Of a stretch of 35,950 bases of DNA, positions 10,603 through 34,272 are shown piece after piece (position 1 is the stretch's first letter; the number at the start of each line of letters is the position of its first letter). A program made the translations under genes and the position numbers. Below the pieces are notes generated by a model, which saw only the letters and a program-made list of their open reading frames with translations, searched no databases and was not told the DNA's origin. The stretch lies in the IMG/VR virus record IMGVR_UViG_3300042564_002294, positions 1-35,950 of that record. One strand, given 5' to 3'. This stretch comes from a virus.

Positions 10603-10956
10603 ATGATTGAATGTACAATTTGTACAATTTTATGGAACAACATCAAAAAGTATCTAACAGATACAACTAAAATCTTTTCAAAAGATTTTGTAAAACAAAA
10701 TTATCATAAACACTTGGGTTATTCGCTAGTGTTAACTTTCTTTAGTATGTGGTTATTATTATCATATGCTCATTTGGCTGAGACAGGAATGCCTTTTCAA
10801 TTATTTATTGGTGGGTTTGGAGCTTATGCTGTTAACTTTGTTAGAGAATGGTACTACGGTATTAAGTATGGTGCGCCATGGGACTTTACTGATTTAAACA
10901 TGGGAAGTTACGGTGGTATCATCGGTGCTTTGTTAGCAGTGTTATTCACCATATAA
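10603..10956 (+). CDS. Small membrane protein with three predicted helices, holin-like
   Basis: 117 aa. Predicted transmembrane stretches are residues 39-58 (LGYSLVLTFFSMWLLLSYAH), 64-83 (PFQLFIGGFGAYAVNFVREW) and 102-117 at the very C-terminus (SYGGIIGALLAVLFTI). The amphipathic loop between helices 2 and 3 (YYGIKYGAPWDFTDLNMG) contains conserved-looking aromatic and acidic residues. Size and topology are compatible with a class I holin, but no endolysin gene lies beside it, and it could equally be another phage membrane protein. It follows the fibre gene by eleven bases with no promoter motif of its own, so it is probably co-transcribed. Its 3' end overlaps the convergent minus-strand gene by 15 bases. 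Confidence 0.65.
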   Translation: MIECTICTILWNNIKKYLTDTTKIFSKDFVKQNYHKHLGYSLVLTFFSMWLLLSYAHLAETGMPFQLFIGGFGAYAVNFVREWYYGIKYGAPWDFTDLNMGSYGGIIGALLAVLFTI

Positions 10957-11091
10957 GTCTTTTTTAGGTATACATGCTTCTCTAATTAGCTTTTCAACAA
11001 ATTGAAACATCTTTAACCCATTTTCTTCACAATATTTTTTAAGGAGTTCATGAGTTATTGGTGTAATTTTTAAGTTTTTATCCCTTTTCAT
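10942..11091 (-). CDS. Small ribbon-helix-helix (Arc/CopG-like) DNA-binding protein
   Basis: 49 aa on the minus strand, from ATG at 11091 to TAA at 10942-10944. The sequence matches the minimal ribbon-helix-helix pattern: a short strand (LKITPI), helix A (THELLKKYCEEN), a Gly turn (GLKM), and helix B (FQFVEKLIREAC), then a charged tail. Such dimers insert the paired strand into the DNA major groove. Three half-sites of AGTATGA lie 17-47 bases upstream of its ATG, the layout expected for autoregulation. It is the only minus-strand gene within the structural block and sits between the fibre/membrane unit and the tail sheath gene. A repressor or switch role is inferred. Confidence 0.7.
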   Translation of the reverse strand: MKRDKNLKITPITHELLKKYCEENGLKMFQFVEKLIREACIPKKDLYGE

Positions 11092-11107
11092 AACGCTTTT
11101 TACAATA

Positions 11108-11138
11108 AGTATGATAAAAGTATGAAAAAAATCATACT
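11108..11138. promoter_or_regulatory. Candidate operator: three AGTATGA half-sites
   Basis: On the plus strand AGTATGAT (11108-11115) and AGTATGAA (11119-11126) are direct repeats spaced 11 bases apart, one helical turn; ATCATACT (11131-11138) is an inverted copy. The second and third form a palindrome with a six-base A-rich centre. The site lies just upstream of the ribbon-helix-helix gene and about 47 bases upstream of the sheath late promoter motif. Confidence 0.5.
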
Positions 11139-11184
11139 AAAAGTGATTATTATTTTTTTACAAACCCACTTTTGAAAAATCAAT

Positions 11185-27710: not shown

Positions 27711-28028
27711 ATGGCAGAATACTACGATAGATATAAATCATTTAGAAATAACTCTGGGGTTGAACCAATCCCAGGTATTACAATACCTTTTTCAAGTTCA
27801 GATAAATCGGTTGTTTATAAAAAAGGGGAAAGTAGACTTGACAAAATAAGTAATGTTTATTATAATAACCCGTACAGTGGTTGGTTAATAATGCAAGCTA
27901 ACCCAGAATTTGGTGGTTTAGAATTTAACATACCAGATGGTGCTGTTATTAGAGTACCATTTCCTTTTAACGAAGCGATAAGTCGTTACTCAACCCAAGT
28001 TTTAAATTATAAACAATTATATGGATAA
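27711..28028 (+). CDS. LysM-like baseplate wedge protein (T4 gp53-like)
   Basis: 105 aa. Residues about 38-85 read as a LysM-type fold: KGESRLDKISNVYYNNPYSG, WLIMQANPEFGG and IPDGAVIRVPFP, which is the gp53/LysM-like pattern of a Gly-Glu start, a hydrophobic helix with Trp and Asn, and an IPxG...IRVP strand. In T4, gp53 is a wedge protein that joins wedges around the hub. The protein is half the length of T4 gp53, so only the core is present. It begins ten bases after the upstream gene and its 3' end overlaps the hub gene ATG by eight bases, so all three are co-translated. Confidence 0.68.
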   Translation: MAEYYDRYKSFRNNSGVEPIPGITIPFSSSDKSVVYKKGESRLDKISNVYYNNPYSGWLIMQANPEFGGLEFNIPDGAVIRVPFPFNEAISRYSTQVLNYKQLYG

Positions 28029-31000
28029 TCAACCTAAAATAGGGTGCCGTTTTGGTACTGGCACTGGAGATAGAACAAAAATTATAGACCCTAACGCGTT
28101 TTATGGTGAAACAAACTCATCTAGAAACATACCAGTTAGGACTGAAGATTTAACAATTTCAGTTAAATTAACAACAACAAAAAAATCTAGAACAACTATT
28201 GCTACTAGTGAAGATGAAAACACCGTTGTTAAAGAACAAAAAGGTGCTACTATAAATTTTATTGAAGGTTCTGATATTAATGGTAAAAAAGTGTTAACAA
28301 CAAAGTACACTCAATTAACAACAGTATTTGACAAAGATGAGTTTAACCCAGAAACATTTGGTATTACTAATATTGATATAGATTATAATACTTCATACAC
28401 ACCAGTAATTAAAATTGATTTTGTTGATGTTAAAGGGTCTTCTATTTTTCAAAACGAAGAATCGTTAACACAAGATAATTCACAAAATAAATATACAACA
28501 TTTTTTGAATTTCCTTATCCAATGTTTGAGTTGGAAGTAAAAGGTTATTATGGTCAACCAGTAACGTATTGTTTACATATGACTAAGTTTAACTCTAAAT
28601 TTAATTCACAAACTGGTAATTTTGAAATTAGTTGTGAGTTTATTGGGTATACATATGCCTTATTATCAGACATGCTTGTTGGTGTTTTAAAAGTTATTCA
28701 TTTAACAAATATTGGTGAGACTATATTTAATAATTACAACACAGAAAGAACAGACAAAGGTAAACAACCTATTTTAAATTTAGTTGAATTAAGAAAAAAA
28801 ATAGCTGATATAAGTGAGGAAATACAAAAAGCTGCTGCAACTTCATCTGAATCAAAAGATATAGTTTCGTTTCAAGAATCTAACAATTTATTATCTAGTT
28901 TAAATTTAAATTTAGCTAATTTAAACGACCAATTTTCTATAACAAAAAAAGATAATACAACAGAAACGACTGAATATAGTTTTGTTGTTATGGATAATAC
29001 ACCTTTTTCTAATGAAAAAAATGCAAATTATAATGCGATAAATGCCGAGATAAAAGAAACAATAAAAAAATATAACGATTTAAAAATTAATGGCTTATCA
29101 ATAAATGAAAATGAATTTGCGTCACCAACAATTATAACTGAATTAACTTTAGATAAATTAGAACCAGACTATGATTTACAAATTGGTATTTATAAAGACG
29201 CCTCGGAAATAGAATCTTTTAAAAAGGATTTAAAAAATTATATAAAAAACAATTTTAATTTAGCATCAAACGTAACATTTAGAGCGTTTGATTTAAGGTC
29301 TAGATATAAAATACTTGAAATTCAAAAATCTTTATCTGAAACTAGTTTAAAAGACGCTAATAGAGCGTTAGCTATTCAGATAAAAGACAAGGTTGCTGTT
29401 ACTTTAGGTTTTGAACCAACTGTTAGAAATATGGTTGAAATATTCACTAATTTAATTGAAGTTTTCATGGAAACTATATGGACAGTTTCAAATAAAGCTG
29501 AAAACAATGTCAAAAGAAAAGAATTATTACAAACAGCTTTTGGTCAAGATTTAAACAAAAGTGATTATACCGAAAAAATTAATTATTGGCCTTGGCCAGA
29601 TTATAGAGAAAAAGATAGTAAAACAAACGCTTATGTTGATACGTATTTAGGTTCATGTCCTGAATTAAAAAATAATATATCAGACATAGACGAATTAGTT
29701 TTTATTGACGATTTATTAAAAGCGTTCCTAACAGCTAACAAACAACAAAAAGAATCAGATTTATTAAATGCTGGTGATGAAACATTATTTATACCAACAA
29801 ATCCTTTAGATACTAAGGTTTTTGGTGTTAGCGGTAATCCTTATGCTAAAAAAGATATAATAAACACACAACAAGCTTTAAGAACTGTTTTGGTTAGAGC
29901 TATGACATTTTTAGGTTATTCCAATGACCAAGATTATTTAACTGCTGGTGAAGATGGTGAAATACAAACAATGGCTAAATTAGAAGCTAGAATGTTATAT
30001 GATGCGTTATTAAATCCTACAGTAAAATCATTATTTAATAAAATAGAACAAGATAACATAAAAAAAACAATTGGTAAGATTTCTGGTAGTGATAGATATG
30101 TGATTGGTGAGACAACGCGAGGTGATTATTATTACAACTATGTCAACAAAGAAGATGGTGGTTTATTAAATGATTTTAAATTATTACCTATTGGTTTTGA
30201 TATTGAAGGTGAAGATTTAGAAACTGCTTATCAAAGTGAACCATTTGCTAGGACTTATATTGAACAAGATAAATTAAGAGAATATGCTAGTTCTGGTAAA
30301 ATATTTTTAACAAACTATGGTGGTGGTTTAAACGCTTTAGGTTCTGATTCTGTTGATAACGCTAAATCTAATGATGGTGGTATTTATATAGAAATAAAAC
30401 AACCATCAGATATAATCCCAACTACAACTGAAAGCTTATATGATACAAATTTAAAAACAGAAATGGTTTTAGATTTAAAAGCTTTAAAAGAAGATTCAAT
30501 TGCTAGTGCAGGTTTTAATGTTTTTGGAGGTAATTATGGAATTTCAGATTATAGTAATATTAATTTTGGTGAAGAGTTTAAAACGAGTCAACCAAAATCA
30601 ATGTTTATTTTTTATGAACAAAATAGTATCCTAAATGGTTTAGGGTTATCTAGAAAAGCGTCTAAAAATTTAAAAAGTGATTATGATTTTAATAAAACGG
30701 GTAATATAAATTTATCTAATACATACGAAGAAAGAAATATAGATATACAAAGTATATTAGAAACAGGTAAATACAAAGGTAGCTACGCTAAACCTTTACA
30801 TAAAGATTATGGTTCTAATTGGAGTTTATCTAGAAATATGGATAGTAGTGATGTAAGTTATCCTTTTATAAGTCAATATTTAGATATTAGCGATGGTAGA
30901 AGAAAAACAATTTCTCTTTTTGGTAGTAAATTTTATTATTTTCAGAAAAATAATGTTATTAATTTTTATGATAATAGACAATCATCGATTGCAGAAAAAT

Positions 31001-34000
31001 ATGTTAGAGGTTTATTGTTTTTAAACACATTACCGTTTAAAATATATGAAACTGGTAACGTTGTCAATAACCCAAGTGGTACAGTAAAAAATAATAAAAA
31101 CAATCCTTTTCAAGTACCTGAAATACGACATTTATTTGACATAAACGCTGGTTTTATACATACACCTAAATTATGGGTAGCCTATGTTGGTGGTTTATTG
31201 TGGTGGTTATCTGAAGAAGACCCAAAAGTTTCTGGAACTAAAATAATTGGTGGTGGTAGAGGTAAGACGGACCCTATTATTTGGAGAAAAGATTGTGGAA
31301 ATGATTCAGGTAATTGGGCGTGTAAACCTACTAAAAATCAATATTTACCTAAAATGTTAATGTTAGACCCTGAAGATATTGAAAGTGATAGTATACTACT
31401 TAATTTACCTAGACAAGTACAAGATAAATTTAAAGAAGTATTTTTTGAATTTATTAATGGTGAAGGTGAAACGTCATTTACTAACATAGCGTCTAAATTA
31501 GAAATTTACGATGGTACTGGGTTAGGATTTTGTAATTTAGTTAATAGATTTTCACAACCAGATTTACCAAATACTTTTATAAAAAAAACAAATGTTTCTA
31601 GTAATTACGTAAAAGGTAGTGACATAACAGATAATTTTAAAAATTATGATAATTATAATGTTATTTTACCTGTTTATAGTGATATAGGTGGTGCAGAGTA
31701 TTTAAGTTCAATATATTTGGAATTAAAAGATGATTCAGATATTGTAGGTAAATTAAAAGACATTTTTAAAGAAGAATTAATAATTGTAAACACTGGTTAT
31801 AAAATTTGGAATCCAAAAAAATATGCTCAATACAGACAAGGTGTTACAATAAAAAAAGATGTTTATGGTGAATATTTTAAAACGTTTACAGAAGAAATAA
31901 AAGCTTTAACTGAAGGTACGACAATACAAGGTGAGGAAGAAAAACAACTAAATGAAGTTTTCGGTATGAGTAATAAAAACGACATTAAATTAATGTTGTA
32001 TAAACACTGTAAAAACATTTATGATAAATGGGTTGGTGGTGTTCAAGATATTAACAACGTTATTTTCCAATGTGGTGATAATTCTAGAACTGATAGTAAT
32101 AGAAAACAAACAGACACGGCTTTATCTGATAAATATGGTTCAGGCAAACCTAGATTAATTGATAGTTTTAGATTTGTAACTAGGTCTTTTAGAGATATTG
32201 GTGACGAATTATTTATCGACCCTAGACCTGTTGAAGAGCAAATATCAGATTTTCCTAACACATCTAGTTATAGTGTAATTAGTGGTTTATTAAATGATAA
32301 TAAATTTGAGTTTCACTCGTTACCAACTTTTATCAATTATAGAGATGATAAAATGTTAGAATCTGTTTTTACACCGCAAGAATATAATAATTCAATAACA
32401 TCATGCGGTCCAACATTTGTTTGTGTTTATACAGGACAACATTCGAAAAGTTTAGATATTAAATCTGGAAGATACCCAAATGATGGTTTTGATATGCGCT
32501 GTAATTCAACAACAATTCCAGACGATTTTAAAAACGCCTTACAACCATATGAGGACCCAGTTGCTGTTTTTGAGGTTAATTATTCGCAGCAAAATCAAAA
32601 TATATTTAAAGACATAACTTTGGACCAAAGCGAATTTTCTGAAACTGAAGAATCTTTAAAGATTGTACAAGATATATCTATGAACGGGTTTGAAAATAAA
32701 CCAACATATGCTGGTCAAAACATGTATAATATATATGGTGTTAGAAGTTATAGTGCTGAAATAGAAATGTTAGGGAATCCAATGATTCAACCTATGATGT
32801 ATTTTCAATTAAATAACATACCAATGTTCCATGGTGCTTATATGATTATAAGAACTAGACATAATATTAAACCTAATCACATGACAACATGGTTTACTGG
32901 TAGTAGGATTAGAGCTATTGAAACACCATTATTTGATGTTGCCGATGCGTATATGAGTTTAATCGAAACTTTAAACTTATCTGAAGTTAAGGGTGGTTCT
33001 ACTACAGTTAGAGGAACTGGAGGTATGGTATTTGGTCAAAATTGTGGTGAGTTTAAATTAACTAAACCTATTGTAGATGGCGCTGAAGGTTTTTATAAAA
33101 GTAAACCAATTAGAGATTTAGTTGCAATTGTTGAAAGTAGAGGTGATTATAACGCTTATAATAATGGTATTGCTGGTTCTAAAGGTACAGGAAACTATAT
33201 ACCATCACAAATGACCGTTTCTCAAATAAAATCAGCACAAGCAAAAACAGGTAACGATAGAATATTTGCAGTTGGTAAATATCAATTAATACCTAAAACT
33301 TTTGACACCATGGTAAAAACTTTAGGGTTTTCTGATAGTACAGTTTTCAATGCTGAAAACCAAGAGAAAGCTGGTGAATGGTTAATATTAAAAGGAGCTG
33401 GTTATAGAAATGGTTTAATAAACTATTTCAAAACAGGTAGTTTGGGTAAAGAAAAAGATTTACAAAACGCCATAACTGATTTAGCGTTAGAATTTGCATC
33501 TTTTCCATCTTATTATGGTGTAACTACTTCACAAGCGGCCTCTAGAGTTAACCCAATTGGTTATAATTCAAAAACAGCTTTATACGGTGGTTCAGCTGGA
33601 AATGCGGCGTCTGCTGTTTTTTGTGCATACGATGTTGCTGAAGCTTTAATTGAAACTTGGAAAAATTATAATCCTAATAAAACACCAGAATTTACTTTAG
33701 AAAAATTAAAAAATACGTCAACAATACAAACAGATAACGATAATTCTATAAAATTAACAGCGAATGATAAATCAACAGCTATTATTATGGGTGATTCAAC
33801 TGTGGGTGTGATTAATTCTGTACCTAATGGTTTACAAAAAAATAAAATAGACATTTCTTTTAATAAAGTTGGTGAAACTGTTAATTGGTTAATCAGTAAA
33901 TTGAAAGAATTTGGTAAAGATGGTAAAAAATATGGTAATACTAAATACGTTTTTGTGTCAATAGGTACAAATGATGGTTATGTTGTAAGTGATAGTAGTA

Positions 34001-34272
34001 AAAAGAAAATTAGTGAATTAAATGAATTGATAAAAAAAATATACCCAAATGCTAAAAGAGTTGTAATACCAGGTACTTACGGTTGGGGTAATGTAAATGA
34101 TAAAACCAAACAGAATCAAGATAATTATTATAAAATATTTACTGATTTAGGGTTTACTTATCAATATCCAAACGCTAGTGCTTTGGCGTCTACGGATGCT
34201 AAAGCTCATGATTCAAAATCTGATTGGTTTGTTAAATCAACTAAAAAAATTGTTGATATAAAAAATGCGTAA
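28021..34272 (+). CDS. Giant baseplate hub with lysozyme-like and SGNH hydrolase domains
   Basis: 2083 aa, starting eight bases inside the upstream gene. Residues 1-400 and onward are a beta-rich N-terminal hub part. Residues about 1571-1640 (YGVRSYSAEIEMLGNPMIQP, then NNIPMFHGAYMIIRTRHNI and TTWFTGSRIR) match the gpD/gp27-type hub barrel. Residues about 1695-1830 are a lysozyme-like/transglycosylase domain: VAIVESRGDYNAYNNG with Glu1705 as the probable acid, then AVGKYQLIPKTFDTMVK (1750-1766). Residues about 1918-2083 are an SGNH hydrolase: MGDSTVG (Ser1926), G1951 in KVGETVNWL, GTND (Asn1984), and a DAKAH block (Asp2059, His2063; usual spacing is DxxH). The lysozyme would cut peptidoglycan during injection and the SGNH domain probably removes acyl groups; substrates are inferred. 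Confidence 0.85.
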   Translation: MDNQPKIGCRFGTGTGDRTKIIDPNAFYGETNSSRNIPVRTEDLTISVKLTTTKKSRTTIATSEDENTVVKEQKGATINFIEGSDINGKKVLTTKYTQLTTVFDKDEFNPETFGITNIDIDYNTSYTPVIKIDFVDVKGSSIFQNEESLTQDNSQNKYTTFFEFPYPMFELEVKGYYGQPVTYCLHMTKFNSKFNSQTGNFEISCEFIGYTYALLSDMLVGVLKVIHLTNIGETIFNNYNTERTDKGKQPILNLVELRKKIADISEEIQKAAATSSESKDIVSFQESNNLLSSLNLNLANLNDQFSITKKDNTTETTEYSFVVMDNTPFSNEKNANYNAINAEIKETIKKYNDLKINGLSINENEFASPTIITELTLDKLEPDYDLQIGIYKDASEIESFKKDLKNYIKNNFNLASNVTFRAFDLRSRYKILEIQKSLSETSLKDANRALAIQIKDKVAVTLGFEPTVRNMVEIFTNLIEVFMETIWTVSNKAENNVKRKELLQTAFGQDLNKSDYTEKINYWPWPDYREKDSKTNAYVDTYLGSCPELKNNISDIDELVFIDDLLKAFLTANKQQKESDLLNAGDETLFIPTNPLDTKVFGVSGNPYAKKDIINTQQALRTVLVRAMTFLGYSNDQDYLTAGEDGEIQTMAKLEARMLYDALLNPTVKSLFNKIEQDNIKKTIGKISGSDRYVIGETTRGDYYYNYVNKEDGGLLNDFKLLPIGFDIEGEDLETAYQSEPFARTYIEQDKLREYASSGKIFLTNYGGGLNALGSDSVDNAKSNDGGIYIEIKQPSDIIPTTTESLYDTNLKTEMVLDLKALKEDSIASAGFNVFGGNYGISDYSNINFGEEFKTSQPKSMFIFYEQNSILNGLGLSRKASKNLKSDYDFNKTGNINLSNTYEERNIDIQSILETGKYKGSYAKPLHKDYGSNWSLSRNMDSSDVSYPFISQYLDISDGRRKTISLFGSKFYYFQKNNVINFYDNRQSSIAEKYVRGLLFLNTLPFKIYETGNVVNNPSGTVKNNKNNPFQVPEIRHLFDINAGFIHTPKLWVAYVGGLLWWLSEEDPKVSGTKIIGGGRGKTDPIIWRKDCGNDSGNWACKPTKNQYLPKMLMLDPEDIESDSILLNLPRQVQDKFKEVFFEFINGEGETSFTNIASKLEIYDGTGLGFCNLVNRFSQPDLPNTFIKKTNVSSNYVKGSDITDNFKNYDNYNVILPVYSDIGGAEYLSSIYLELKDDSDIVGKLKDIFKEELIIVNTGYKIWNPKKYAQYRQGVTIKKDVYGEYFKTFTEEIKALTEGTTIQGEEEKQLNEVFGMSNKNDIKLMLYKHCKNIYDKWVGGVQDINNVIFQCGDNSRTDSNRKQTDTALSDKYGSGKPRLIDSFRFVTRSFRDIGDELFIDPRPVEEQISDFPNTSSYSVISGLLNDNKFEFHSLPTFINYRDDKMLESVFTPQEYNNSITSCGPTFVCVYTGQHSKSLDIKSGRYPNDGFDMRCNSTTIPDDFKNALQPYEDPVAVFEVNYSQQNQNIFKDITLDQSEFSETEESLKIVQDISMNGFENKPTYAGQNMYNIYGVRSYSAEIEMLGNPMIQPMMYFQLNNIPMFHGAYMIIRTRHNIKPNHMTTWFTGSRIRAIETPLFDVADAYMSLIETLNLSEVKGGSTTVRGTGGMVFGQNCGEFKLTKPIVDGAEGFYKSKPIRDLVAIVESRGDYNAYNNGIAGSKGTGNYIPSQMTVSQIKSAQAKTGNDRIFAVGKYQLIPKTFDTMVKTLGFSDSTVFNAENQEKAGEWLILKGAGYRNGLINYFKTGSLGKEKDLQNAITDLALEFASFPSYYGVTTSQAASRVNPIGYNSKTALYGGSAGNAASAVFCAYDVAEALIETWKNYNPNKTPEFTLEKLKNTSTIQTDNDNSIKLTANDKSTAIIMGDSTVGVINSVPNGLQKNKIDISFNKVGETVNWLISKLKEFGKDGKKYGNTKYVFVSIGTNDGYVVSDSSKKKISELNELIKKIYPNAKRVVIPGTYGWGNVNDKTKQNQDNYYKIFTDLGFTYQYPNASALASTDAKAHDSKSDWFVKSTKKIVDIKNA

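Follow-up and report, generated by a model that had tools for sequence, protein, structure and literature searches.

A ribbon-helix-helix gene and its AGTATGA array back-to-back with the tail sheath gene: a putative long-conserved genetic switch in uncultured giant phages

Several described systems resemble parts of the locus analyzed here, in which a short gene for a ribbon-helix-helix (RHH) protein faces away from the tail sheath gene of a giant phage. With repressors of the Arc/MetJ type (phrog_582, phrog_3180; PF10723), the locus shares a very small protein whose own gene is preceded by an array of short sites, and autorepression would be expected here as it is there. Unlike in those systems, the RHH gene of this jumbo-phage lineage is paired with a structural gene on the other strand, its three-site array is phased to the sheath promoter, and no role in lysogeny or plasmid copy control is apparent. 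The E. coli RHH protein NikR has the operator GTATGA-N16-TCATAC, as given in the available excerpt (PMC7055735), and its half-site is identical to that in the window, the whole 35,950-bp stretch of viral DNA analyzed. However, the window protein ends at 49 aa, without the C-terminal metal-binding domain of NikR, and its opposed sites are separated by N17 (sites 1 and 3) or N6 (sites 2 and 3) instead of N16; protein size and site spacing exclude NikR itself. The ParB/omega protein of pSM19035 is likewise an RHH protein whose arrays are built of direct and inverted 7-bp units, and in the text available these heptads work best when contiguous (PMC9499535), whereas consecutive units in the window are offset by 11 bp (4-bp gap) or 13 bp (6-bp gap).

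Two further systems concern homing endonucleases. The DNA-binding domain of I-TevI represses the enzyme's own late promoter, according to the portion of the source at hand (PMC2988022). The likeness is that some relatives of the window carry an RHH-bearing GIY-YIG nuclease directly behind the array, which recalls I-TevI-type autoregulation by analogy; the DNA-binding domain here is, by contrast, RHH-type and also occurs free-standing, as a far more widespread gene. Moraphages, in the excerpts available, have a Histone H1-like protein (PF07432), DnaJ and aquatic genomes of 200-307 kb, and antitoxins resembling CcdA/HicB occur with their PacI-like homing endonucleases (PMC12619734). The window is itself a 36-kb fragment; among 10 contigs searched, drawn from 18 large contigs of relatives, PF07432 was found in 9 and DnaJ in 8. 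Because these features are shared, the lineage is probably that of the recently described moraphages. CcdA and HicB presumably have an RHH-type fold, and the likeness thus extends to RHH-type regulators beside homing endonucleases in the same or a closely related lineage. The available moraphage results include no sheath-linked RHH gene, AGTATGA array or GIY-YIG fusion (PMC12619734), and the accessible part of a second moraphage paper mentions no RHH protein. A sheath-linked RHH switch was not found described in the titles of work on phage tail sheaths and RHH proteins or on GIY-YIG/RHH homing endonucleases, nor in these moraphage excerpts.

The RHH gene and its protein

A reading of the window made before any comparison (hereafter the sequence-only reading) had proposed a 49-aa, minus-strand RHH gene next to repeated AGTATGA sites, placed between a fiber unit and the sheath gene. 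Judged by family matches and divergence, the ORF (translation: MKRDKNLKITPITHELLKKYCEENGLKMFQFVEKLIREACIPKKDLYGE; Table 1) is a real gene for a constrained, RHH-type protein. In Pfam, the protein (P0001) scores 21.7 bits against PF10723 (RepB-RCR_reg; cut-off 21), a family that we take to be of the RHH type and that is matched at E<0.01 by 26 of 28 diverse members of the window's RHH family. P0001 also matches two Arc-like repressor families in PHROG (3.6e-4 and 1.6e-3), and PF07764 (Omega_Repress) is matched weakly by 1 of the 28 members (0.0072). Twenty positions are invariant across these members, including N6, K8 and T10, which presumably lie on the DNA-facing strand. An AlphaFold monomer of moderate confidence (pLDDT 72.9, pTM 0.44) contains helices at 11-23 and 29-39, with no strand assigned. 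Searches with this model returned two matches in Foldseek, both weak, and a best Z of 2.4 in VIA-align, a weak match to an antitoxin chain. The PDB profile search reached 2kel, which we take to be the RHH repressor SvtR, only at E=0.31; its main matches were SUMO proteins, which cover a 15-residue stretch and were taken as chance.

Table 1. Features of the RHH-sheath intergenic region and the genes on either side (window coordinates)
Feature	Position	Strand	Remarks
49-aa RHH gene	10942..11091	-	divergent from sheath; family matches, selection, predicted helices
Candidate operator half-site 1, AGTATGA	11108..11114	+	~16 bp from RHH start codon in most relatives
Candidate operator half-site 2, AGTATGA	11119..11125	+	11 bp (one turn) after site 1
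Candidate operator half-site 3, inverted (TCATACT on +)	11132..11138	-	13 bp after site 2
Tentative -10-like AT-rich element for RHH gene	11145..11154	-	AAGATATATT in many relatives; moderately conserved
CTTTTGA element before sheath late-type motif	11169..11175	+	kept also in some relatives without RHH gene
Late-promoter-like motif of sheath, ATATTTATTATAAA	11186..11199	+	recurs before other + genes; position kept in most aligned regions
Tail sheath gene, 951 aa	11244..14099	+	PF04984 4.2e-08 (Pfam); phrog_23 7.2e-60 (PHROG)

Selection on the protein is evident in its divergence. Among pairs from 116 loci whose sheath genes differ at more than 10% of nonsynonymous sites, that is, beyond close relatives, synonymous differences in the RHH gene are saturated at ~0.7, and nonsynonymous differences amount to 0.10-0.16. 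This saturation rules out recent lateral spread as the source of the protein's high identity. Furthermore, synonymous divergence of the RHH gene equals or exceeds that of the sheath gene, so there is no sign of recent spread.

The placement given in the sequence-only reading holds on the sheath side, where family matches identify the downstream gene as the predicted sheath (Table 1). On the other side, the RHH gene is separated from the fiber gene by an additional 117-aa ORF (10603-10956, plus strand), which shares 15 bp with the 3ʹ end of the RHH gene and has no family match in Pfam or PHROG. In the phage collection, neither P0001 nor a divergent RHH member gave relatives at a useful E-value, and the fiber-to-sheath region had no DNA match. 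Elsewhere in the window, a 2083-aa ORF (28021-34272) has a weak, below-cut-off GDSL-lipase-like match near its C-terminus.

Linkage to the tail sheath gene

Relatives were collected from viral contigs with the RHH protein alone (276 relatives), the sheath protein alone (214) and an RHH profile (at least 290), the best 80 being used in each case. The RHH gene is present in 64 of the 80 loci selected by sheath; the remaining 16 comprise 10 with too little upstream sequence and 6 truly without the gene. Both genes were seen in 227 of 246 loci of the redundant set and are on opposite strands in all 227, which bears out the antisense placement first proposed for the window. Each of the 18 large contigs (70-368 kb) encodes the RHH family once, one of them with an additional decayed copy. 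Contigs from bacterial genomes yielded only one RHH relative, L274 (QCKH01000012.1), a contig of 51 kb from a single-cell Prochlorococcus genome. It is probably an infecting or co-sorted phage, and here, too, the RHH gene lies opposite the sheath gene. In the outgroup loci of Microcystis phage Mel-JY01, LR756508 and Flavobacterium phage immuto (L187-L189), an RHH gene of this family and the array are both absent before the sheath gene. In another locus, L063, a divergent 303-aa DUF7487 ORF (PF24308, 1.8e-31) occupies the RHH position ~90-1000 bp upstream of the sheath gene, and no array is left.

Antitoxins are common among RHH proteins, and the gene could in principle be an orphan antitoxin against a host toxin. 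Multiple antitoxin genes also occur in moraphages, as the available text reports (PMC12619734). However, the neighboring gene is convergent and without a family match, no toxin gene adjacent in the same operon, the criterion for a type II antitoxin, was found, the presumed DNA-facing strand includes invariant residues (N6, K8 and T10), and the RHH gene goes with one array at one position. We regard an antitoxin role as very improbable.

The AGTATGA array and its spacing

The array consists of two direct copies of AGTATGA one helical turn apart and one inverted copy, as the sequence-only reading had noted (Table 1). The heptamer is absent from the rest of the window, for the whole of which 6.4 copies are expected by chance, and three copies within 31 bp arose in none of 300 first-order Markov simulations. 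When upstream regions of relatives were scored against the window's layout as a fixed template (maximum 21), all 119 non-redundant regions with the RHH gene scored 15-21, and all 6 long-enough regions without it scored 10-12; shuffled regions scored 10-15 (one was too short for scoring). The anchored consensus, from the 113 regions scoring at least 17 (6 lower scorers excluded), is AGTATGAyAAAAGTATGAnAAAAnTCATACTAA. Other layouts occur in some relatives (L124, L138, L197, L211, L231 and L243), among them two inverted pairs in L124 and L138 and other mixtures in L243 and L197. The six loci without the RHH gene, all of which retain an ATATTTAT motif by eye, are surrounded by carriers on the sheath tree and require two or more independent changes there; therefore, joint loss of the gene and the array probably took place on two or more occasions. 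This comparison strongly supports the earlier proposal of an autoregulated switch with operator half-sites.

The repeats could alternatively serve in RNA, as an attenuator or processing hairpin, and a 7-bp stem is possible between sites 2 and 3. However, 105 of 749 pair cells are broken, with double changes in only 2, and pairing leaves the direct copy at site 1 unexplained. The broken, uncompensated pairs rule out this reading, to which we attach a negligible probability.

Across the large contigs, the array also appears to be the only one of its kind per genome. Tandem pairs with 0-1 mismatch occur solely at the RHH-sheath locus in 16 of the 18 large contigs; the other two (behind L124 and L126, with the L124-type layout) have only 2-mismatch matches, ~10 kb or more from the RHH gene. 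A control of the reversed-motif type is uninformative for this search because AGTATGA is mirror-symmetric. All other pattern matches in the 18 contigs carry 2 mismatches, and a multi-site regulon is not supported. The further AGTATGA pairs for which a search had been suggested are thus missing from the window and, at 0-1 mismatch, from the large contigs outside the locus. In this survey of phage DNA, the confinement of such pairs to the locus lends no support to the earlier suggestion that the protein acts on the host.

On the RHH side, the start codon and the array are 15-18 bp apart in most regions and about 5, 27 or 38 bp apart in the others; these one-turn insertions and deletions could reflect duplication of the 11-bp repeat instead of selection for phase. 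No RHH promoter was clearly recognized in the compared upstream regions. The AT-rich element listed in Table 1 is tentatively its -10-like element, and within the array the minus strand carries candidate boxes of the type TAnnTTTG, TACTTTTG in 45 and TACTTTTA in 48 of 113 regions. TAnnTTTG is presumably the -7 promoter box of Bacteroidota. With the array ~16 bp upstream of the start codon, any RHH promoter would overlap the array or fire through it, and binding should therefore switch the RHH gene off.

On the sheath side, the sequence ATATTTATTATAAA is a putative promoter, given its recurrence. Allowing up to 2 mismatches, we count 28 occurrences of the full pattern (13.5 expected), and ATATTTAT has 15 copies on the plus strand of the window and 8 on the minus strand; 10 of the 15 plus-strand copies lie no more than 80 bp before one of 21 listed plus-strand genes. 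A host-type promoter may also precede the sheath gene, where TAnnTTTG is exact at a fixed position in 46 of 126 regions, with only its core found elsewhere. Cultured Flavobacterium phage immuto (L189, ~4671) has a ATATTTATAATAAA motif before its sheath gene, with neither array nor RHH gene. In L228, L243 and L255, a hairpin-like inverted repeat and T runs were noted by eye between array and sheath promoter, as if they may stop read-through. The sheath start also seems to be an insertion hot spot: in L074 (1-745), a 213-aa, HNH-looking ORF, which had no match in a Pfam search, is joined to a duplicate of the sheath N-terminus, and this fusion lies between promoter and sheath gene.

The distance between array and late motif is nearly constant. 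In the window, the inverted site starts 54 bp before the motif, close to the ~50 bases first estimated, and across the relatives 102 of 113 aligned regions have the motif at +78/79, counted from where the array starts. Among 70 clusters (sheath identity 85%; related clusters are not fully independent), the distance from the inverted site is 54/55 bp in 58, 44/45 in 7, 64/65 in 2, 34 in 1 and 48 in 1, with the motif not found in 1. At 75%, the exceptions among 31 clusters are 34, 44, 44, 45 and 64 bp and one not found. Spacing between array and promoter thus shifts almost only by whole helical turns, while the distance from motif to sheath ATG takes 20 values from 41 to 63 in the same 70 clusters. 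This fixed helical phase at ~54 bp suggests that dimers bound at the array probably act on the sheath gene.

An arrangement of this kind could also arise if the array served the RHH gene only, as a purely local autorepressor site, and lay near the sheath promoter passively in a compact intergenic region. In most relatives the array starts ~16 bp from the RHH start codon and would there occlude any RHH promoter, as expected of such a site, and the array and the sheath motif do not overlap. However, the near-exclusive shifts by whole turns are left over, as are the loci in which insertions have displaced the RHH gene by ~200-490 bp (L043, L091, L098 and L012): the array there is still 78 bp before the sheath motif. 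Even so, in these same loci the divergent gene row still begins at the array. A purely local role is a real possibility, if not a probable one.

GIY-YIG insertions and control of the sheath gene

Some of the displacing insertions encode endonucleases. In L012/L096, L098/L190/L191 and L194, an ORF that fuses a GIY-YIG domain to RHH separates the RHH gene from the array, and decayed remnants are found in L043 and L091/L092. The nuclease domain is assigned by PF01541 above cut-off for L012 and L098 (Pfam) and by eye for L194; in all three the RHH copy is C-terminal. Together with the RHH gene, the fusion ORFs make up an operon-like row, in which they stand immediately behind the array. The insertions are sporadic, at four separate positions on the sheath tree (L104, given the same label class on the tree, has a longer leader only). 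In the window, the RHH protein contains no GIY-YIG domain by Pfam, and no nuclease is present at the locus.

The presence of these fusions, some decayed, at four tree positions raises the possibility that the system is a domesticated homing element, in which the RHH protein derives from, or guards against, a GIY-YIG endonuclease carrying the same domain, with the array as a target or guard site. I-TevI, in the portion of the source at hand, binds both its homing site and its operator (PMC2988022), and CcdA/HicB-like antitoxins accompany the PacI-like homing endonucleases of moraphages in the excerpts available (PMC12619734). However, most of the phages have the RHH gene and array with no endonuclease at the locus, and synonymous divergence at least equal to that of the sheath gene gives no sign of recent spread. 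We consider this origin unlikely. A composite scheme, in which an ancient one-target RHH regulator with a sole operator controls the sheath alone through helical phase, a GIY-YIG endonuclease with a captured RHH domain exploits the same operator, and free RHH protein sets sheath timing while also protecting the locus against homing, is more doubtful still.

The reading that we favor, and hold to be probable, is that the RHH protein is an autorepressor acting on the AGTATGA array and that, once occupied, this array affects the sheath promoter as well. RHH dimers would fill the half-sites between the RHH start codon and the sheath promoter, and occupancy of the array would shut off the RHH gene. 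Bound dimers would additionally affect sheath transcription, by helping, delaying or insulating it. The gene, the selection on it, the array, its joint loss with the gene, its single occurrence per genome and the helical phasing are observed, and from them we infer dimer binding, repression and the sheath effect. Geometry and RHH precedent point to autorepression. Control of the sheath gene is supported indirectly, by the fixed, phased spacing and by the persistence of the array beside the sheath promoter in loci with a displaced RHH gene; the spacing is the main evidence that bound RHH protein would communicate with the sheath promoter.

Taken across many uncultured giant phages, the RHH gene and its three sites, back-to-back with the sheath gene, are strongly supported by sequence comparison as a long-conserved genetic switch. 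In large lytic phages, late transcription factors are usually assumed to turn on the structural genes all together. If the favored reading is true, a dedicated, deeply conserved repressor with one operator, phased to one structural promoter, would mean that these phages meter their tail sheath separately. The more than 100 distinct arrays, with independent losses and displaced copies, offer a clean natural test set for the grammar of RHH operators. Moreover, the locus brings together a homing endonuclease and a phage regulator with a common DNA-binding domain.
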